A stretch of DNA of 64,000 bases from Methylohalobius crimeensis 10Ki (GTDB taxonomy: Bacteria > Pseudomonadota > Gammaproteobacteria > Methylococcales > Methylothermaceae), in the NCBI RefSeq assembly GCF_000421465.1, contig NZ_ATXB01000001.1:2015001-2079000 (forward strand), written 5' to 3'. How positions within the stretch are numbered: position 1 is the first letter of the stretch; each line of letters begins with the position of its first letter. Below are positions 54,962-63,999 of this stretch, one piece after another. The notes below the pieces were generated by a model. It ran no database searches. It was not told where the DNA came from and worked only from the letters and a program-made list of their open reading frames with translations. A program made the translations under genes and the position numbers.

Positions 54962-54989
54962 GTAGGGGCGACCGGCCGGTCGCCCCTAC
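54962..54989 (-). repeat. perfect 28-bp palindrome carrying the putA stop codon
   Basis: GTAGGGGCGACCGG (54962-54975) is followed directly by its exact reverse complement (54976-54989). The TAG of putA (54988-54986 on the minus strand) is part of it. It lies between the ends of convergent icd and putA, and shares its GTAGGGGCG head with the elements at 33863-33890 and 34286-34313. Confidence 0.85.
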
Positions 54990-57900
54990 ACTTCCCGAAG
55001 TGACAGCAAATCGGGATCGCCGCCCACCGCCGCGGTATTGACGCTAAGACTCTTTTCGTAGGCAAAGCGCGCCAGATAATTGGGGCCGCCGGCTTTGGGA
55101 CCGGTGCCCGACAGTCCTTCGCCCCCGAAGGGGTGAGTTCCCACCACCGCGCCGATCATGTTGCGGTTGACGTAGATATTGCCCACCCGAGCATGCTCGG
55201 CGATCCGCTCCCAGATCGCGTCGATGCGGCTGTGGACGCCTAAAGTCAGACCATAGCCGAGCCCGTGAATCCTTTCCAGCAACTCGTCCAAGTGACCCGC
55301 GGAATAGCGCATCACATGCAGAATGGGTCCGAATACTTCGCGGCTCACCGGTTCCAAAGCGGTGATTTCGTATATCGCGGGACCGAAGTAGCAACCGGTA
55401 AGCGGAGGCGGATCGAGCCTGGCCAGGGGTTGGACGTTCGTTTCCAGGTAGGCGCGATGGCTTTCCAGACGGGCGACGGCATCCTCGTCGATCAGCGGAC
55501 CGAGGTCGGTGGAAAGATCCCAAGGATCGCCGATTTTCAGCTCCGCCAAAGCTCCGCAGAGCATATCCAAAACGGGATCGGCCACCTCGTCCTGAAGAAA
55601 CAGTATCCTCAACGCGGAACACCGCTGACCGGCACTGTTAAAGGTGGAGGCGAGCACGTCGGCAACCACTTGCTGAGGCAGGGCCGAACTGTCCACGATC
55701 ATGGCGTTCACTCCACCGGTCTCGGCGACGAAGGCGGCGATCGGGGCTCGTCTGCCGGCCAGATTCCGCTGGATCTCCCAGGCGGTGTCGGTGGAGCCGG
55801 TGAAAGCCACGCCGCGGATGCGGGGATCACCCACCAGCGCCGCGCCCACCTCACCGCCTCCCGGAAGAAAATGGAGCACTTCGTTCGGGATACCGGCCTG
55901 CTGGAGCAGACGAGCCGCCAGAGCCGCAATGAGGGGCGTCTGCTCGGCCGGCTTGGCCAACACGGGGTTGCCGGCCGCGAGCGCCGCGGCCGCTTGGCCG
56001 GTAAAGATGGCCAGGGGGAAATTCCAGGGGCTGATGCAGACAAAGGGGCCGCGACCGTGAAGATAAAGGCGATTGGATTCCCCCACCGGCCCGGGGAGGG
56101 AAAGCGGATTCGCAAACAATCGCCTTGCTTCGGCGGCATAATAATATAAAAAGTCGATCGCCTCCCGAACCTCGTCGACGGCGTCCGACAGGCACCTGCC
56201 TCCCTCACGGATGCATAGGGCCAACAACTCATCTCGGTGGGACTGATATAATTCGGCGGCCCTTTCCAGACAGGCGGCCCGGTCTTCCGCCGGCACCCGG
56301 TCCCATTCCGGCGCCGCCGCCTCCGCGCAGGCCAACGCCTTGGCGATGCTCTCCTCGCCCGCCTCCACCACCGTCCCGACCACCTGGCCACGATCGACCG
56401 GAGAATATACCATCCGCTCCTTCCCCTCTCCCCCTTTACCGCTCACCCAAGGTTGAGCCTCCCAAGTATTTTGCCGAAAGGAGGAAAGTAATTCGTTCAG
56501 GCGACGGTAGGTCAACGGGTCGCTCAAATTCGGGCCCGGGGAATTGGGCCTTTGAGGTTGATAGAGGTCGGCGGGTTGGGGGATTTGCGGATGAGGAATC
56601 GTTTCCAGGGTTCGAACTTTGGCGACCGGATCGGCGATCACCTCTTCGATGGGCAGGCGCGCATCGCTCAATCGGTGGACGAAAGAAGTATTCGCCCCGT
56701 TCTCCAGCAAGCGGCGCATCAAGTAGGGAAGCAGCTCCCGAAATCCACCCACCGGCGCATACACCCGACAGGGAATATCTCCTTCCGTTTGCCGCAAGGC
56801 CCGGTAGAGCGGTTCCCCCATCCCCTGCAGTCGCTGGAATTCCAGCGGTCTCCCTTCGGCGACTTCGAGTATCCAGGCGACGGTGTGAGCGTTGTGGGTG
56901 GCGAACTGGGGAAAAAAAGCCCGGGGAAATGCCAACAGACGACGCGCCAAGGCCAAATAGGAGACGTCGGTGTTCATTTTTCGGGTGAACACGGGATAAT
57001 CGGACCACCCTTGCTGCTGGGCTCTTTTGATTTCGGTGTCCCAATAGGCCCCCTTCACCAGGCGTACCGGGATGCGTTTCCCCTGGCTTGCGGCTATATG
57101 GCGCAGGTATTCGATCAAGGGGCCGGCCCGTTTCTGATAAGCCTGGACCGCCAGGCCGAACCCCTCCCAGCTGGAAAGATCCGGATGACCGAAGACCGCC
57201 TCGAAAATATCCAGCATCAGGTCTAAGCGTTCCGCCTCCTCCGCGTCGAGGGTCAATCCGATTCGAGCCGCCCTGGCCTCTTTCGCCAAAGTGAGAAGAC
57301 GGGGAATCAGCTCCCGGCGTACCCGTTCGCCTTGCGTAAACGTATAACGCGGATGCAGCGCGGAGAGTTTGACCGAAATCCCTGGCATCGCCAGCACATC
57401 GGATTCATCCCCCCGGTGCCGGGCAAGCACGGTGATGGCATGGCGGTAACTGCGAAAGTAAGCTTCCACATCCTCGGCGGTAAACGCCTCTTCCCCGAGC
57501 ATATCGAAGGAATAGCGAAAATCGGGCGAACGGCGCGCCAGCGCTTTTTCTATCGTCGTGGCCAGAATAAACTGACCGCCCAAAATCTTCATCGCCCGGA
57601 CCACAAGAACATGGACTGCCGCCTCGCCCCGCTGGAGCAATTTCTGAAAAAGGGTGTCGGAATCTTCGATTTCCAGCCGCATCAGTCGTCCCGTCAACAG
57701 CAGGCCGAAGGTGGAGGCATTGACCAGAAAGGATGCACTGTGTCCGAGATGCCGGTCCCATTTTCCCCGGCTCAACTTGTCGCGAATCAAACGCTCGGCA
57801 GTTTGATCGTCGGGGATTCGCAGCAGCGCCTCGGCCAGGCACATCAACAGCACTCCCTCCTCGCTGGAAAGCTCGAATTCGCTCAGGAAGGCATCCAACG

Positions 57901-58114
57901 GAAGGGGATGCTGCCTCACCGATTGCACCAAGCGCCGTGCTCGTTCATGTACCCTTTGCCGAGCGCCGTCGGATAGGGAAACCTCGGGAAGCAGTGATTC
58001 GAGGGTTTGGGCCTCATCGGCCAAATAAGCGGCGGCGATCGCCTTTCTCCGGGGAGAGAGGGAATCAGGATGTTCAGCGCCGTCTTCAGGGGTGTCCCGG
58101 GTGATCGGATTCAT
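54986..58114 (-). CDS. putA: bifunctional proline dehydrogenase / P5C dehydrogenase PutA
   Basis: The 1042-residue enzyme oxidises proline to glutamate. The proline dehydrogenase barrel spans about residues 70-480, with VKLSALHPRYTF near 247, RLVKGAYWDTEIKRAQ near 355 and the substrate loop near 438-470. The aldehyde dehydrogenase half spans about 550-1010, with Glu in VAETGGVNAMIVDS, catalytic Cys in NSAGQRCSALR and the ending HPFGGEGLSGTGPKAGGPNY. There is no N-terminal ribbon-helix-helix, so it is not a repressor. It overlaps hdc by 29 bases and is the last gene of an alkB-like/hdc/putA run. Its stop codon is inside a palindromic repeat. Confidence 0.95.
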   Translation of the reverse strand: MNPITRDTPEDGAEHPDSLSPRRKAIAAAYLADEAQTLESLLPEVSLSDGARQRVHERARRLVQSVRQHPLPLDAFLSEFELSSEEGVLLMCLAEALLRIPDDQTAERLIRDKLSRGKWDRHLGHSASFLVNASTFGLLLTGRLMRLEIEDSDTLFQKLLQRGEAAVHVLVVRAMKILGGQFILATTIEKALARRSPDFRYSFDMLGEEAFTAEDVEAYFRSYRHAITVLARHRGDESDVLAMPGISVKLSALHPRYTFTQGERVRRELIPRLLTLAKEARAARIGLTLDAEEAERLDLMLDIFEAVFGHPDLSSWEGFGLAVQAYQKRAGPLIEYLRHIAASQGKRIPVRLVKGAYWDTEIKRAQQQGWSDYPVFTRKMNTDVSYLALARRLLAFPRAFFPQFATHNAHTVAWILEVAEGRPLEFQRLQGMGEPLYRALRQTEGDIPCRVYAPVGGFRELLPYLMRRLLENGANTSFVHRLSDARLPIEEVIADPVAKVRTLETIPHPQIPQPADLYQPQRPNSPGPNLSDPLTYRRLNELLSSFRQNTWEAQPWVSGKGGEGKERMVYSPVDRGQVVGTVVEAGEESIAKALACAEAAAPEWDRVPAEDRAACLERAAELYQSHRDELLALCIREGGRCLSDAVDEVREAIDFLYYYAAEARRLFANPLSLPGPVGESNRLYLHGRGPFVCISPWNFPLAIFTGQAAAALAAGNPVLAKPAEQTPLIAALAARLLQQAGIPNEVLHFLPGGGEVGAALVGDPRIRGVAFTGSTDTAWEIQRNLAGRRAPIAAFVAETGGVNAMIVDSSALPQQVVADVLASTFNSAGQRCSALRILFLQDEVADPVLDMLCGALAELKIGDPWDLSTDLGPLIDEDAVARLESHRAYLETNVQPLARLDPPPLTGCYFGPAIYEITALEPVSREVFGPILHVMRYSAGHLDELLERIHGLGYGLTLGVHSRIDAIWERIAEHARVGNIYVNRNMIGAVVGTHPFGGEGLSGTGPKAGGPNYLARFAYEKSLSVNTAAVGGDPDLLSLREV

Positions 58115-59228
58115 GGTTCAAGATCTCCTCCAAGAAGGTATCGATGTGGCGTTTTTCCACGTGACCTACGGTAACCAGATGGGCGGTCTCCGCATGTACC
58201 GCAATCTGCCAACGCCTGAGCACCGGTTCGGCCATCCGCGGGAAAACCACGATCGGGGAATGGGGGTTGCGCCAGGCGGAGATGCCGACACCGTTGAAGC
58301 GCTCCACCGCGTATTCGGCCGTTTCCAGGCAGTGGGCGGTCAGCGCGCGGAATCCATCTCTTCCCAGGGTTTCGATGGCATACCAGAGCATCAAGGGAGT
58401 CAAGCCGCTGCGCGATCCGGGGATGGTGCTGTCCAGACTCCCCACGTATTCCACCATCCGGGCGATGCGCCGAACGTGGACTTTTTTGGCCAGAACGACG
58501 CCGCAAGGAACGGGCGCTCCGAGCATTTTGTGGCCGCTGACGGCGATGCTGTCGATACCGGCCTGAAAATCGAAAACCGGAGGTCGATCGACGAAAGGCA
58601 GGATCATTCCATGAAAGGCGGCGTCGGCGTGAATATGGTAATCGCGCAGGGAAAGCGATTCGAAAACGGCGTGAATCCGCTCCAGATCGTCCACCGCGCC
58701 TTTCATGGTGGTGCCGATATTGGCCAGAACGATGGCCGGGGCATCGCGGCGGCCGTTCAGGGCCCGCGCCAGGTCCCCGTAATCCATCTCGCCAGAGGCG
58801 GTGCTTTTGATCTGGCGCTGGCGCATTCTGAGCAACTTCAGAATTTTGGGAATGCTGTAATGGCTGTCCTCGGAATAATAGACAATGCCTTCCGGATACT
58901 GTTCGCGTCCCAAAAACAAGCCGTAAAGGTTCCCTTCGGTGCCGCCCCCGGTCACATACCCCCAAATGGCTTCCCGGCGTGCATGAAACAGCTCGGCGAA
59001 GAAATACACCACTTGCCGCTCTATATCGTGGGTATTGAGCCTGTTATGCGTATCGATGAATGGATCGCCCGCATTGTTCAAGGGATAGGAGAGAAACGGA
59101 TACAGCGGACGATAGTCGAAACGAGCATTGCACGGATAGCCCAAAAATTGTTCCACCCCGCGGATGAACTGCTCGGTCAGCGCTTCAAGGCGCGCTTGTA
59201 CGTTGGGCGGCAGACTCGAATTCGGCAT
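58086..59228 (-). CDS. hdc: PLP-dependent histidine decarboxylase
   Basis: The 380-residue enzyme of PLP decarboxylase group II has a GTEGNLYGLFLGREQYPEG segment near residue 96, an active-site region HADAAFHGMILPF near 200 and the PLP lysine in SIAVSGHKMLGAPVPCG near 232. The overall pattern matches bacterial PLP-type histidine decarboxylases, which make histamine; a related amino acid as substrate cannot be excluded. It overlaps both the alkB-like gene (52 bases) and putA (29 bases), so the three are likely translated from one transcript. Confidence 0.85.
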   Translation of the reverse strand: MPNSSLPPNVQARLEALTEQFIRGVEQFLGYPCNARFDYRPLYPFLSYPLNNAGDPFIDTHNRLNTHDIERQVVYFFAELFHARREAIWGYVTGGGTEGNLYGLFLGREQYPEGIVYYSEDSHYSIPKILKLLRMRQRQIKSTASGEMDYGDLARALNGRRDAPAIVLANIGTTMKGAVDDLERIHAVFESLSLRDYHIHADAAFHGMILPFVDRPPVFDFQAGIDSIAVSGHKMLGAPVPCGVVLAKKVHVRRIARMVEYVGSLDSTIPGSRSGLTPLMLWYAIETLGRDGFRALTAHCLETAEYAVERFNGVGISAWRNPHSPIVVFPRMAEPVLRRWQIAVHAETAHLVTVGHVEKRHIDTFLEEILNHESDHPGHP

Positions 59229-60307
59229 GGTTTTTCTAGATTTTGACGCTTGACTCGGTTTAATTCGGCGGACGCCGCCTTTTGGAAAGCCCGGTTACGG
59301 TAGGCAACCATGAACATCAACGCAAAGTAGCCGTATGGCAAGCGGGGCGCTTCCGACTGGACTTGGAGCCGGTAATACGGCAAACCGGGACGGCAGTGGT
59401 GATGGGAATGCCGGGCCAACCCCAGAATCAGGTAGTGGGAGCACCAGCTATCCGTATACCAGGCATGCTGCGGCCCCGGTTTCCCACGGGCACGCTGCAA
59501 ACCCCAATGCTGGACGTAGTTGATCGCTTCCAGATTCCGAACCCCCATCAACGCCTGAACGCAGAACGCCAATAGCGCCAAGGGTCCAAATCCCCATCCG
59601 ATCGCCGCGAGCAGACCCAATTCCGCCACCACGCCCTGAAGCACCCGGTGGGACAGCCAGCGCCGATCCCAGCGTTCGGTCATACGCAACCTTCGGCTTT
59701 CCAAGCGCCACGCGCTAAGAAACTGGGCTCCCACGCTACGCTGCCAAAACCGGGAATAGGTCTCGCCGAACCGGGCGGTGGCCGGGTCCTCCTTCCACCC
59801 CACTCGGCGATGGTGACCGCGCAAGTGTTCGGTGGCGAAATGCTCGTAGCAGCACACGATCAATAATATTCTGCCCGTGGCGCGAAGGAAAGGGGAACGA
59901 CGGTGGATCAACTCGTGGGCGGTGAGCAGGCCGGCGATCGCGGCGTTGCTGCCGAACAGGAACTTGACCACCACCAACATGGCCAAGGTATCCACCGCTT
60001 GCGACGACGTCCAACCCCAATGGCGGCTTTCCGCAAGCAACAAACCGGTGTCGACCACGAACAACCCCGCCAGGAACAACGGCAGGGCGTCCAGACCCAT
60101 CCCGCCGCAGCTCGAATCGGCTTTTTGGGACACGCCCACCCCCAGATAGTCGGCAACCACCGGCGCCGCTACCGGCAGCAACCAAAACAAGGCATCTCCC
60201 GCGGCATGCGGCGCGCTGAGAAGAAAACCCAGGCACCAGAGAGGCAGCAACAGGGCGGTGTAATACGGCCAACCGACGAATTTTTTCCGTGACGGGGAAA
60301 CGCGCAT
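59177..60307 (-). CDS. AlkB-family membrane diiron hydroxylase
   Basis: The 376-residue integral-membrane protein has about six membrane helices and all four histidine motifs of alkane 1-monooxygenases: TAHELIHRRSP (about 129), HFATEHLRGHHRRV (about 156), NYVQHWGLQR (about 265) and LARHSHHHCRPG (about 302). The last differs from the usual HSDHH by Asp to His. The context (histidine decarboxylase, carbamoyltransferase, diiron oxidase) argues for a specialised substrate rather than n-alkanes, but this is inference. The frame ends inside hdc. It is divergent from the carbamoyltransferase across 61 bases. Confidence 0.83.
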   Translation of the reverse strand: MRVSPSRKKFVGWPYYTALLLPLWCLGFLLSAPHAAGDALFWLLPVAAPVVADYLGVGVSQKADSSCGGMGLDALPLFLAGLFVVDTGLLLAESRHWGWTSSQAVDTLAMLVVVKFLFGSNAAIAGLLTAHELIHRRSPFLRATGRILLIVCCYEHFATEHLRGHHRRVGWKEDPATARFGETYSRFWQRSVGAQFLSAWRLESRRLRMTERWDRRWLSHRVLQGVVAELGLLAAIGWGFGPLALLAFCVQALMGVRNLEAINYVQHWGLQRARGKPGPQHAWYTDSWCSHYLILGLARHSHHHCRPGLPYYRLQVQSEAPRLPYGYFALMFMVAYRNRAFQKAASAELNRVKRQNLEKPCRIRVCRPTYKRALKR

Positions 60308-60368
60308 AATAGAGCGAAGGAACCAGGCTATCGCCGTTTCCGTCAGATTATCACGACCGAGTACTTTT
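60308..60368. promoter_or_regulatory. divergent promoter region alkB-like / carbamoyltransferase
   Basis: Only 61 bases separate the two divergent start codons. Any promoters must overlap here or extend into the coding regions, which suggests coordinated control of both arms. I could not read clear -35 and -10 boxes. Confidence 0.4.
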
Positions 60369-62117
60369 ATGAGCCAACGAATCTACATCGGCTTGAGCAC
60401 CACCTACCACGATCCGGCCATCGCCGTCGTGGACGAAACGGGCCGGGTCTTGTTCGCGGAAGCGGCCGAACGCTGCTTGCAATACAAGCGCGGGCTGAAC
60501 GTCCCTCCCGATCCCCTCCCCCATGTCACTGATTGGTTGGAGCGCTACTGCGACCACGCCGACACGTGGGTGATCGCCTCCAATTGGTCTAGGAAACGAC
60601 CGTGGTACGAATACGCCAGCCGCTGGCTGGGTTATTTTCTCCCCCAAGGCTTGGTGGCGAATGGTTACCGCGATCATTCCACCTTTCTGGAAAAATACAA
60701 ACTTTTTCACATGCTCGCCTGCCAAAATGCCAGCGTTCCGCTGGGAGGCATCAACCTGGTCCGCCAAGCAAGCGAGCTTTTTCCCGCAGTCGAACTCCGC
60801 TTCCATCACTTCGACCATCACGATTGTCACGCCGCCGCGGCGTGTTTTTCCAGCCCCTTTTCGGAGGGGAGCTGCCTGATCGTGGATTCCTACGGCGAAC
60901 GCGGCTCATTGGCCGCCTACCATTATCGGGACGGTGCTTTCCAGCCGCTTCGCGTCGGCCGTGGAATCGCCAGTCTGGGTTTTTTCTACATGTGGCTGAC
61001 CGAACTCTGCGGTTTCGACTGGCTCGCGGGGGAAGAATGGAAAGTGATGGGACTGGCCGCCTATGGACAGATAGACGACACCTTACGCCGACGATTCCGT
61101 AAAATGCTGTGGACGGAAAGTCTCGATCTGCGCCAAAACCTGGCCGCCATTCTGGCCGATGACGCCGAAATCGAAGCATTACGGCGCCGGCCCGGGAGAT
61201 CGCCTTTGGAAGCGGCGGATCTGGCCCGGACCGGGCAGGAACATTTCACCGAGATCGTTTGCCAATTGGCGACCAACCTTTATCCTCTAGCCCCTTCTTC
61301 CCGACTAATCCTGGGCGGCGGATGTGCGCTGAACTCGGCATGCAACGGACGCCTCCTGGCGGAAACGCCTTTCGAGCATCTGCACGTCCCCTACGCACCG
61401 GCCGACGACGGCACGGCCCTGGGCGCGGCCTTGCTGGCCTGGCGGCGCGATCATCCGGGTCAGCGGCCGCCGCCCGCGTCTTCCCCTTATTTGGGGAGTT
61501 CGCTGGATCCGGTCTGGATCGAGAGACTTGTCCGTCATAGCGGTCTTCGCATGTATCATCTCCCCAAGCGCCTGGAAGAAACCGTCGCCGATTATCTGGC
61601 TCAAGGACTATTGGTGGGTTGGGTTCAGGGACGCGCCGAATTCGGCCCCCGAGCGTTGGGCAATCGTTCCGTTCTCGCCGATCCCAGGGATCCGGGTATG
61701 AAAAACCGGCTCAATACCCGGATCAAATTCCGCGAGGAATTCCGCCCCTTCGCCCCCGCCATCCTGGATGAATACGGCGCCGAGTATTTCCAGCCCTATC
61801 AGACCTCGCCCTACATGGAGCGGGCGTTGCCATTCAAACCGAAAGCGGCGGCCCAAGTGCCGGCGGTGGTTCACGCCGACGGCACCGGTCGCGTGCAAAG
61901 CGTGATTCGAGAATGGAACCCTCGGTTTCACCGCCTGCTGACAGCTTTTCATCGGCTCACCGGGGTGCCGCTACTGCTCAACACCAGCTTCAATCTGATG
62001 GGAAAGCCCATTCTCCACAACGTGGAGGATGCGGTGGCGACCTTCATGACCTGCGGGCTGGATATTCTGGTCATCGAAGATTATCTGTTTTTGAAACCCC
62101 ATGTGGAATCCCTCTGA
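60369..62117 (+). CDS. NodU/TobZ-family O-carbamoyltransferase
   Basis: The 582-residue enzyme transfers a carbamoyl group from carbamoyl phosphate, through carbamoyl-adenylate, to a hydroxyl. It has the Kae1-like N-terminal domain, beginning YIGLSTTYHDPAIAVVDE with HHDCHAAAACFSS near residue 153, GGGCALNSACNG near 317, and the YrdC-related C-terminal domain with RAEFGPRALGNRSVLADPR near 423, KFREEFRPFAPAIL near 452 and LNTSFNLMGKPI near 536. Members act in natural-product pathways. It overlaps the next gene by 17 bases. Confidence 0.9.
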   Translation: MSQRIYIGLSTTYHDPAIAVVDETGRVLFAEAAERCLQYKRGLNVPPDPLPHVTDWLERYCDHADTWVIASNWSRKRPWYEYASRWLGYFLPQGLVANGYRDHSTFLEKYKLFHMLACQNASVPLGGINLVRQASELFPAVELRFHHFDHHDCHAAAACFSSPFSEGSCLIVDSYGERGSLAAYHYRDGAFQPLRVGRGIASLGFFYMWLTELCGFDWLAGEEWKVMGLAAYGQIDDTLRRRFRKMLWTESLDLRQNLAAILADDAEIEALRRRPGRSPLEAADLARTGQEHFTEIVCQLATNLYPLAPSSRLILGGGCALNSACNGRLLAETPFEHLHVPYAPADDGTALGAALLAWRRDHPGQRPPPASSPYLGSSLDPVWIERLVRHSGLRMYHLPKRLEETVADYLAQGLLVGWVQGRAEFGPRALGNRSVLADPRDPGMKNRLNTRIKFREEFRPFAPAILDEYGAEYFQPYQTSPYMERALPFKPKAAAQVPAVVHADGTGRVQSVIREWNPRFHRLLTAFHRLTGVPLLLNTSFNLMGKPILHNVEDAVATFMTCGLDILVIEDYLFLKPHVESL

Positions 62118-63999
62118 AGCCGAGATAGATTGGCTGCGTTCCCTCTTCGACCCCCTGGAAGACCCGGGACCGCCCAATTGGCCCGCTGCGCCGGAAGGAC
62201 CTCTTATCGAACGATGGCAAAGCTGGTTTGCCCCCGTCGGAAGGTGGGAAGGCAGTTGGCTGGACGGCGTCGTAACCCTGGCCAACGCCCACACCGAAAG
62301 GGGAGCGGCACTACTGCGCTTGCAAGTGGCGATGGAAACAGCGGCAGCCGACCGGCGGCAAATCTTTAGGTCGGTAGGCGGCAACCCCTCGCCGGCTCTG
62401 CAGGAAGACCTTGCTTGGCTGACCGCTCTGGAGCGCCGGGGCGAGTTATTTCTGCCGGAAATCCTCGGGATCACCCTGGCCCATGCCCGAATGGGCGGCG
62501 GGATGTTCAGCTTCGGCCGCGCAAAACCGCCGACTCGAAATACTCCGGAAGAGACTCGAAGCGCTGCGGAGCAGAATTACCTCGAGGTGAAAGCGATGGC
62601 GGAAGCCTGTTTAGGGCCCGGAATAAACCCGGACCGGCTCGCCGCAGGATCGGCTTTCTACCATCGCCGCAGCCGCGCCTGGCTTGCCGCTTGGGAAGGC
62701 ATTTCTTCCGATCCGCGCCGGCAGGCGCTTGCCCTTTTGCGGGAAAAAGCCCGCTACGGCAAAGGTTTGCATGATCGAATCCGTCTCAAAGGACGCAGTC
62801 TGGACGACTGGTTGGAGGCGTTGGCGGACGGAAAAGAAACGAGCTTCCCCGATGTTTTTCCAAATTCTTCCCTTGGCAGGCATTTTTTAAATCAGACGCT
62901 CGCATTCGGAGGGCCCATGTTCGGCGTATTCAGCCACGAAGAACAGGCCATTCTACGTCGCTGGCTGGAATGGGAAGAAACGTCCGATGCAACCCCCGCT
63001 CTCGGCAAACCGCCGCTTCCCACAACCGAAAATCCCATTCCCGCCGCGCCTTCCGTCTCACCGACTCGAAGAGCTGCGGAGCAGAAACCTTCCCGGCAGG
63101 CAAAACTCTCTCCCCCTCTCCTCTATCACCGGCTCTTGCATCCGGACCGATTTCCCCACAGCCTGCCGGCGGCCCGTCGTTACGTGCGAAAGATTCTGGC
63201 CCGCGCCGGCAGAGGTAAACTCCCTTTTTCCTACACGCCGGAAGCTTTTTGCCAATGGATGGAAGACACCTACGCAGAACGGATAGGCCCCGCCCCCGCT
63301 CGGACCTATCCGCTTCTATCCCAACCCTCTTACCGCTGGGGCATCGAGCAACTCGCGCCGGCGATTCTCGTGGACGGAAGCTGGCTGGCCAATACCTTGG
63401 CTTTAGCACGGACCTACCCCAGGGTGGGGCGGCCCTTGTGGAAAATCTTCCGAGATGAACTAGGGGACGGCGAAACCTGCCGCAACCACGCCAATGTCTA
63501 TCGGAAACTCCTCAAGCAGGCAAATATTTCCCTGCCACCTTTCGATTCGGAAGCTTTCATCCATCACCGGGGATTCGTGCTTGGGGCGTTCGATATGCCC
63601 GCCTATTTGCTGGCCATCGGCCGCCTTCCCCACGCTTTCCTGCCCGAACTGCTCGGCCTGAACCTCGCCATCGAGCTGAGCGGCCTGGGCCAGACCTATC
63701 GGCGCTTGGCCAGGGAAATGGAGTATCACGGCTTCGATGCCACCATCGTTCGTCTGCATCAATCCATCGATAACCTCGCCTCGGGCCACGCCGCCCTGGC
63801 GCGCGATGCAATCATCGCCCATTTGGAAACAATGGATCGAGGCGGAGAGGAAACGGTCCCACGGCAATGGCGCCGGATCTGGACCGGCTATCGTTCGCTT
63901 CGCATCGCCTCCCGGCGCTTCGCCTGGGCACTGGTCATCGGTTGGGGATGGCGTTTCGGTCTGCGGGAGCGATTCTTGGGTCGGACGCCTCTCCCATGA
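62101..63999 (+). CDS. heme-oxygenase-like diiron oxidase with a degenerate N-terminal copy
   Basis: The 632-residue protein ends two bases before the window edge. The C-terminal half (about 410-590) matches the iron-containing redox enzyme (heme-oxygenase-like diiron oxidase) family: VDGSWL (425-429), DELGDG with E453, NHANVY with H463, FLPELLGLNLAIELSG with E525, and HQSIDNLASGH with H553, D557 and H563 as likely iron ligands. The N-terminal half repeats the pattern in degraded form, GSWL at 51-54 and FLPEILGITLAHARMG at 117-132, without the ligand set. Related enzymes perform N-oxygenation, desaturation or C-C cleavage. It is coupled to the carbamoyltransferase gene. Confidence 0.8.
   Translation: MWNPSEAEIDWLRSLFDPLEDPGPPNWPAAPEGPLIERWQSWFAPVGRWEGSWLDGVVTLANAHTERGAALLRLQVAMETAAADRRQIFRSVGGNPSPALQEDLAWLTALERRGELFLPEILGITLAHARMGGGMFSFGRAKPPTRNTPEETRSAAEQNYLEVKAMAEACLGPGINPDRLAAGSAFYHRRSRAWLAAWEGISSDPRRQALALLREKARYGKGLHDRIRLKGRSLDDWLEALADGKETSFPDVFPNSSLGRHFLNQTLAFGGPMFGVFSHEEQAILRRWLEWEETSDATPALGKPPLPTTENPIPAAPSVSPTRRAAEQKPSRQAKLSPPLLYHRLLHPDRFPHSLPAARRYVRKILARAGRGKLPFSYTPEAFCQWMEDTYAERIGPAPARTYPLLSQPSYRWGIEQLAPAILVDGSWLANTLALARTYPRVGRPLWKIFRDELGDGETCRNHANVYRKLLKQANISLPPFDSEAFIHHRGFVLGAFDMPAYLLAIGRLPHAFLPELLGLNLAIELSGLGQTYRRLAREMEYHGFDATIVRLHQSIDNLASGHAALARDAIIAHLETMDRGGEETVPRQWRRIWTGYRSLRIASRRFAWALVIGWGWRFGLRERFLGRTPLP

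Follow-up and report, generated by a model that had tools for sequence, protein, structure and literature searches.

A conserved AlkB, carbamoyltransferase, and diiron oxidase gene cassette in Methylohalobius crimeensis and its relatives, with a possible role in lipid tailoring

A three-enzyme cassette within a five-gene block

Do five tightly packed genes at the right end of a 64,000-nucleotide stretch of the Methylohalobius crimeensis 10Ki genome (here called the window) form one pathway, or is a smaller unit inherited? The window corresponds to G000:C1:2015001-2079000 of the 3.5-Mb source genome, G000. On one strand, the block encodes an AlkB-like membrane diiron hydroxylase (AlkB), a pyridoxal phosphate-dependent enzyme of the histidine decarboxylase family (HDC, gene hdc), and PutA; on the other, it encodes a NodU/TobZ-type O-carbamoyltransferase (CTase) and a heme-oxygenase-like diiron oxidase (HDO). 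The original prediction joined all five into one small-molecule pathway. Our analysis indicates that the working unit is an inherited three-enzyme cassette, AlkB, CTase, and HDO, and not a five-gene pathway. The three genes probably act in one tailoring route, which we read, with a probability of about 0.4, as a lipid-tailoring relay of hydroxylation, O-carbamoylation, and N-oxygenation.

Several observations define the cassette. First, we retrieved 36 loci from 35 genomes of the same order, and the AlkB, CTase, and HDO genes form one group in 32 of them. These loci were hand-picked through AlkB and HDO matches, not through adjacency, and represent 35 of the 79 genomes bearing AlkB or HDO; the fetched loci were at most 20 kb long, some ended at contig ends, and L062, L109, and L110 were shorter than 10 kb. 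The exceptions were G002 (two loci, with alkB on one contig and CTase-HDO on another), G004 (the contig stops after the CTase gene), and G006 (CTase-HDO with no alkB in the 4.8 kb upstream). Second, two layouts were seen. The divergent one, alkB against CTase-HDO, occurred in 19 of the 32 complete loci, all in families f1 to f5, and a one-strand CTase-HDO-AlkB order occurred in the other 13, all in f8; the distance between alkB and the CTase gene was ∼4 kb in G019. Third, the flanks mostly differ. Few other gene families recurred among the first 23 loci, and those that did came from close pairs (L004 with L005/L057; L060 with L061) or were common domains, for example, GGDEF/EAL. The linkage of the three genes in at least five families of the order, despite two arrangements and mostly dissimilar flanks, speaks for a genuine shared trait. 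In the part of the literature searched, with supplementary tables (including S4 of PMC8064604) outside it, neither an AlkB-CTase-HDO set nor genes for methanotroph carbamate hopanoids were described.

Co-occurrence across whole genomes gave a similar picture. Of the 201 genomes of the order, 77 have HDO, 76 have cassette-type AlkB, and 74 have both; the 5 with only one of the two are G006, G090, and G161 (HDO without AlkB) and G004 and G100 (AlkB without HDO), and several of these 5 are fragmented or incomplete assemblies. The AlkB count started from 89 matches at E ≤1e-40, from which 13 weaker than 1e-60 were dropped: eleven AlkBs of family f6 and two fragments (G097 and G110) that may be cassette AlkBs. 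Pairwise distances of the three proteins correlated at 0.82 to 0.84 over 30 loci, with 0 of 2000 permutations as high. The correlation fits shared descent with losses, part of it being due to species phylogeny. As for a link with pmoA, 55 of the 77 HDO genomes have a match to the AMO family, and 19 of the 22 genomes without one have at least 100 contigs; such matches also occur in f6 and f7 genomes without HDO, and the cassette carriers are called "methanotrophs" on the basis of their order and those of its members that are named. The class draw held 367 genomes from outside the order, and 4 of these (G228, G373, G265, and G521) have a near-full-length HDO; G272 has one domain only. In the phylum draw, near-full-length HDOs were found in G521, G917, G801, and G679, and 14 further genomes gave partial matches. 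AlkB was not found in G228 or G373 with the profile that does match in the order search. The G228 HDO-CTase pair lies near a pyrroloquinoline quinone methanol/ethanol-type dehydrogenase gene, and so does the G373 HDO, where the gene was recognized by a look at the sequence only.

In contrast to the three cassette genes, hdc and putA are neighbors outside the cassette and look unrelated to it: they lie beside it in only 1 of the 36 loci, the M. crimeensis window itself. A genome-contig search with AlkB, which may by design skip M. crimeensis itself, picked up loci in a Methylohalobius metagenome-assembled genome (61% identity) and a Methylothermaceae one (52%). In both, the three cassette genes stand together, and a reading of 21 kb around these two loci showed no hdc or putA. 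Of the five-gene pathway originally predicted, the grouping of hydroxylase, CTase, and diiron oxidase is supported and the inclusion of hdc and putA is not, as judged by co-occurrence in other genomes. It had been supposed that HDC supplies a histamine-like core that is then hydroxylated, carbamoylated, and oxidized, with PutA as a supplier of proline-derived precursors or a passenger. The overlapping frames do suggest co-transcription in M. crimeensis, the HDC passes the NF002748 cutoff, and 10 of the 12 hdc-bearing genomes also carry AlkB or HDO (Fisher P = 0.0018, not corrected for phylogeny). Nevertheless, those 12 (E ≤1e-60) are all that were found among the 201 genomes of the order, 69 of the 79 cassette genomes have no hdc at this threshold, and in G002 hdc, an ACT-domain gene, and putA stand in a row on a contig that carries none of the cassette genes (L113/L117 on G002:C2; hdc at L117:9270-10436 and putA at L117:10786-13902). 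We therefore consider a histamine-like product very improbable. The histidine specificity of HDC is suggested by its family name; after the histidine decarboxylases, its next solved relatives are plant serine decarboxylases (E = 2.5e-91).

The hdc-ACT-putA row may be a second unit linking histidine decarboxylase-family enzymes with proline catabolism. In G198, hdc precedes a small gene similar to the ACT-domain gene, and two weak putA-like fragments follow where the contig ends; in G101, putA lies ∼4 kb from hdc. No putA was found in the hdc stretches read of G087, G118, G119, and G160; the survey left out G131, G043, G096, and G183. Together, hdc and putA are at most a loose second unit.

The three enzymes and their possible reactions

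The HDO is a tandem protein, its N-terminal half being homologous to its C-terminal half (hhalign E = 9.3e-39). A search of solved structures with its sequence found nothing at E ≤1. An AlphaFold model built from a 14-row alignment (pLDDT 82.4, pTM 0.77) was more informative. Its sole Foldseek match at E ≤0.001 was the N-oxygenase RohS (7.4e-4), followed by HrmI and SznF. The VIA Z scores, most of them for rows spanning model residues 325 to 627, had the same order: RohS 22.6, HrmI 21.8, SznF 21.4, FlcD 17.6, CADD 15.1, BesC 13.8, and UndA 12.9. The model places three histidines and three carboxylates, the presumed ligands E453, H463, E525, H553, D557, and H563, in a predicted heme-oxygenase fold. 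Of 33 cassette HDOs, 32 have all six and one has D in place of E453; the 11 other HDOs compared all have the complete set. By analogy, these conserved residues presumably bind metals; in the hhalign alignment of the L074 HDO, the six positions have no matching ligand in the N-terminal half. On the strength of the model, the odds that HDO is an N-oxygenase seem to us about even.

The AlkB-like protein matches two solved alkane 1-monooxygenases, 8f6t (E = 5.9e-32) and 8sbb (E = 1.9e-28), and its box histidines (H131, H135, H161, H165, H166, H267, H300, H303, and H304) do not vary among the 18 cassette AlkBs that were aligned. As to whether it groups with ordinary alkane hydroxylases, a point raised in the original prediction, the answer is partial: 33 cassette rows fall on one side of a 100/100 branch and 14 f6 AlkBs of the same order on the other, in a tree of cassette and f6 AlkBs that held no characterized alkane hydroxylase and for which the program warns of long branches. 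Within it, f1 (100/100) and f8 (100/99) were recovered, f2 plus f3 more weakly (94/78), and f4 not as one group.

The CTase has both the Carbam_trans_N and Carbam_trans_C domains above cutoff and matches 12 solved sequences, including NovN, GdmN, and TobZ. The best of 309 plasmid records with a CTase match was plasmid p2 of the cyanobacterium Planktothrix agardhii (47.9% identity over 99% of the query). The neighbors of the Planktothrix gene include genes for squalene/phytoene synthase, P450s, a 3Beta_HSD-type short-chain dehydrogenase/reductase, EBP, a 3-oxosteroid dehydrogenase relative (7p18, E = 1.6e-149; 618.8 bits with the NCBIfam model, below its cutoff of 789), KshA-type Rieske enzymes (4qdc, E = 2.2e-52), and ERG4/ERG24 (244.8 bits), with a squalene-oxidase-repeat protein and a flavin adenine dinucleotide monooxygenase further on. 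From its gene content, this locus (L158 and L167) is read as a putative steroid-type locus. In a CTase tree with 18 of the 36 cassette CTases, these, the Planktothrix CTase, and the G228 CTase lie on one side of a 100/100 branch and gvg-like, NodU, and sugar- or polyketide synthase-cluster CTases on the other. No HDO or AlkB homologue was found in the 25.7 kb of Planktothrix p2 tested, and a search for Planktothrix-type genes beside the cassette in 43 loci gave only weak P450 matches in L072 and L073 and an SQS match in L096.

From these assignments, the following relay can be envisaged. AlkB would hydroxylate a hydrophobic substrate at an unactivated carbon, the CTase would add a carbamoyl group to the new hydroxyl to give an O-carbamate, and HDO would oxygenate the carbamate nitrogen. 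The product would be an N-hydroxycarbamate, or an alkoxyamine if a Lossen-type shift follows. SznF oxidizes a guanidine nitrogen, which the NH2 of a carbamate resembles. The order of the steps, the carbamate as the HDO substrate, and the hopanoid scaffold considered below are inferences. The same cassette might take another third step: HDO might oxidize an amine at another position, introduce a double bond, or break a C-C bond, by chemistry like that of UndA, BesC, or MboA. HrmI acts on an amine and not on a carbamate, and all three of these reactions are listed for HDOs in the available text of PMC13108848; against this, N-oxygenases rank above the C-C-cleaving HDOs structurally, a ranking that is no proof of reaction, and such a third step is rather doubtful in our view.

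Candidate substrates

Under the lipid-tailoring reading, no scaffold gene would be needed because the substrate would already be in the cell. A hopanoid or another triterpenoid is a possible substrate, somewhat short of an even chance, and a hopanoid is our leading guess because the gene for squalene-hopene cyclase (SHC) is present in all 79 genomes bearing AlkB or HDO. Overall, SHC (E ≤0.001) was found in 180 of the 201 genomes of the order, in 10 of 10 cassette genomes that were re-examined, and in 4 of 7 HDO genomes outside the order. The 20 SHC-negative genomes listed have no AlkB or HDO, and neither does G147, which was assigned as SHC negative by elimination.

Linkage gives a further, weak connection between hopanoids and the cassette. 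In G072, the HDO gene ends 1.8 kb before HpnM (242.7 bits, cutoff 160.1), which is followed by genes for an aminotransferase, HpnN (1012.6, cutoff 751.85), an HpnG-like protein (175.1, below 187.1), and SHC (930.2). In G002, an MlaC-family (HpnM-like) gene 45% identical to HpnM of G072 lies ∼5 kb from alkB. Where cassette and SHC share a contig, they are at least 100 kb apart except in G072 (among the matches listed, judged by eye). M. crimeensis itself has SHC at C1:881785-883695 and a second SHC-like gene at G000:C2:667629-669530 (663.5 bits). A faint additional hint comes from the placement of a small gene family (L063:145-711 and L058:15997-16560, the latter Endonuclease dU by Pfam), members of which adjoin alkB in G013, the HpnM-like gene in G002, and the hopanoid locus of M. 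crimeensis (L165).

Hopanoids with carbamate groups have been described. According to the available text of the sources, some Alphaproteobacteria have carbamoyl hopanoids (PMC12583986), and methylcarbamate hopanoids from methanotrophs were tentatively assigned as N-carbamates of the C-35 amine, the pentol form being absent in Methylococcus capsulatus (PMC5100885). A role of the cassette AlkB as the C-30/C-31 hydroxylase of aminopentol synthesis was set aside: group g12 (f8), whose identity with Methylomonas, a reported aminopentol maker (PMC5100885, in part), is an unconfirmed guess, was HDO and AlkB negative wherever listed. If that guess is right, aminopentol synthesis cannot depend on the cassette.

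Two other substrate classes deserve mention. The first is a fatty acyl chain or alkane, which AlkB would convert to a fatty alcohol that is then carbamoylated. The sequence similarity of AlkB to alkane 1-monooxygenases would favor this, whereas the separation of cassette from f6 AlkBs and the steroid-type setting of the nearest plasmid relative of the CTase speak against it; we regard it as quite unlikely. The second is a small polar metabolite as in the gvg clusters, in which HDO and CTase would make an amino-acid-like N-O compound and AlkB would add an extra step. HDO homologues adjoin CTase and SGNH genes in A. vitis, A. baumannii, and other genomes, and several of these gvg-like loci carry genes for LysE amino-acid exporters. 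However, a gvgA-type SGNH gene or a LysE gene was found in none of the 36 cassette loci, whereas among the 8 comparison loci 7 have the former and 4 the latter; the cassette CTases used fall outside the gvg-like clade, and AlkB enzymes act on hydrophobic substrates. This makes a gvg-like product unlikely. The comparison loci (A. vitis, A. baumannii, Pantoea, and others) were recognized by gene content, and the link to GvgC and GvgF runs through these gvg-like loci.

Several points weigh against the lipid-tailoring relay and its hopanoid substrate. An N-oxygenase-like fold does not fix the substrate, and the cassette HDOs do not form a clean clade: in a tree with 15 of them, f36 HDOs and the HDOs of the S. 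lavendulae and S. meliloti clusters fall among them, while the SGNH-linked HDOs keep apart. The cassette is also not uniformly kept. Some near-complete relatives, among them G009 with the same genus label, have neither AlkB nor HDO; G228 has HDO and CTase without AlkB (the search there was negative and had no positive control); and in G003 both the AlkB and CTase frames lack the N-terminal part and overlap (L060, 10866-12975), as if the divergent start region were lost, so that this copy may be broken. As for hopanoids, the 79-of-79 count is confounded by phylogeny, the SHC-negative genomes being nearly all f6 and f7, and ∼100 SHC-bearing genomes of the order have no cassette. Hopanoid genes are close by in only 2 of the 36 loci, a linkage looked for afterwards and with P ∼0.05 on a guessed 1% chance per locus. 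As N-carbamates of a C-35 amine, the methanotroph methylcarbamate hopanoids, as far as their source describes them, do not match the cassette chemistry. Finally, a sterol-type pathway has not been demonstrated in cassette genomes.

Even so, the lipid-tailoring reading leads to specific expectations. It is conceivable, but improbable, that the cassette makes N-hydroxycarbamate or alkoxyamine hopanoids, a lipid class we have not seen described. If it did, such N-oxygenated carbamate hopanoids could serve as biomarkers for these bacteria and bind metals; the available text of PMC5100885 proposes carbamate-group hopanoids from methanotroph cultures as tracers of methane oxidation. Given the carbamate hopanoids reported, whether the cassette carbamoylates lipids in its carriers is directly testable.

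Block layout, neighboring genes, and known systems

The features of the block are listed in Table 1. The coordinates of the open reading frames bear out the five genes, their overlaps (29, 52, and 17 bases), and the 61-base divergent gap, which presumably holds both promoters. The span first given to the block, 58086-63999, leaves most of putA outside.

Table 1 Features of the block, in window coordinates
Feature	Position	Strand	Assignment and support
putA	54986-58114	-	PutA, bifunctional proline catabolism enzyme; NF008869 1442.5 bits (cutoff 747)
hdc	58086-59228	-	PLP histidine decarboxylase family; equivalog NF002748 468.6 bits (cutoff 305)
AlkB-like membrane diiron hydroxylase	59177-60307	-	376 aa; PF00487 (FA_desaturase) 98.2 bits; cassette gene
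Divergent alkB/CTase gap, 61 bases	60308-60368	.	Coordinates
NodU/TobZ-type O-carbamoyltransferase (CTase)	60369-62117	+	582 aa; PF16861 226.8 bits, PF02543 99.8 bits; cassette gene
Heme-oxygenase-like diiron oxidase (HDO)	62101-63999	+	PF14518 (Haem_oxygenas_2) 62.8 bits, residues 415-594 only; cassette gene
C-terminal HDO domain, residues 335-627	63103-63981	+	Range from VIA; carries the six presumed metal ligands

Further genes had been thought possible past the right edge, and no cassette gene was found in the sequence read there. The gene after the HDO end (63999) encodes a glycosyltransferase on the opposite strand, and to the right of the window (from ∼63935; L004:6436-12008) it is accompanied by genes for a CDP-alcohol phosphatidyltransferase, two methyltransferases, a Zn-dehydrogenase, and RibD-C. 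This group is also kept in L005/L057 of a Methylohalobius sp. and is possibly a separate pathway. An extension of the cassette into it was rejected: the group recurs near the cassette only in L005/L057 (one locus), where a GGDEF/EAL gene separates the two, and the same search of the remaining 34 loci did not find it near the cassette. The distance between icd and alkB in L005 is 0.4 kb.

Tandem or HDO-like proteins also occur in other settings. In L078 and L079, from plasmids of S. lavendulae and S. meliloti, a tandem HDO is encoded next to an acyl-CoA dehydrogenase and close to genes of the SidA N-hydroxylase and class I tRNA ligase types, and these loci look like hydrazine-type natural product clusters. 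In Paraburkholderia caribensis plasmid 2 (L081:8243-11653), an HDO-like domain lies inside a protein annotated as a LodA/GoxA family CTQ-dependent oxidase. L077, L080, L154, L155, and L156 (A. vitis, A. baumannii, and others) are HDO-CTase-SGNH loci, some with LysE or ATP-grasp-like genes.

How does the cassette compare with characterized systems? The N-oxygenases RohS, HrmI, and SznF share the fold of the C-terminal HDO domain (Z of 21 to 23) but are only 12 to 16% identical to it, and the cassette HDO is a tandem with a ligand-less N-terminal half; SznF has a cupin domain that the cassette HDO lacks. The E-x9-H spacing of E143/H153 in DtpC (PMC13232832, in part) matches that of E453/H463 in HDO. 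Alkane 1-monooxygenase AlkB has the same histidine boxes and belongs to the same family, whereas the cassette AlkBs form their own clade relative to the f6 AlkBs and are linked to CTase and HDO. The Planktothrix p2 locus shares a closely related CTase on the same side of the tree and has P450 and Rieske enzymes instead of HDO and AlkB. Carbamoyl and methylcarbamate hopanoids, some from methanotrophs, carry carbamate groups as the proposed products would, but in the sources available the known ones are at C-35 and those of methanotrophs are N-methylcarbamates.

The closest parallel in gene pairing is the gvg (PNP-1) cluster. FVG (4-formylaminooxyvinylglycine), which it makes, has an N-O bond, and a CTase plus an N-oxygenase could supply this bond via an N-hydroxycarbamate and a Lossen-type shift. 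In the available text of the sources, FVG production in P. fluorescens WH6 needs gvgC, with a heme-oxygenase 2 domain, and gvgF, a CTase gene (PMC8067088), which adjoin or lie near each other (PMC8067088, PMC4010436); gvg-like clusters of many genera share gvgA, B, C, and F (PMC8064604), section 20 of that paper (its tables aside) naming no methanotroph among them, and the joint role of HDO and CTase is left open (PMC8064604, PMC8067088). Like the GvgC-type tandem HDO, the cassette HDO adjoins a NodU-family CTase gene; the HDOs of gvg-like loci are homologous to it (median identity of 23 to 35%) and share its six presumed ligands. The cassette differs in having no SGNH or LysE gene, a CTase of another clade, and an added AlkB, and it offers a small natural setting in which to learn what HDO and CTase do together.

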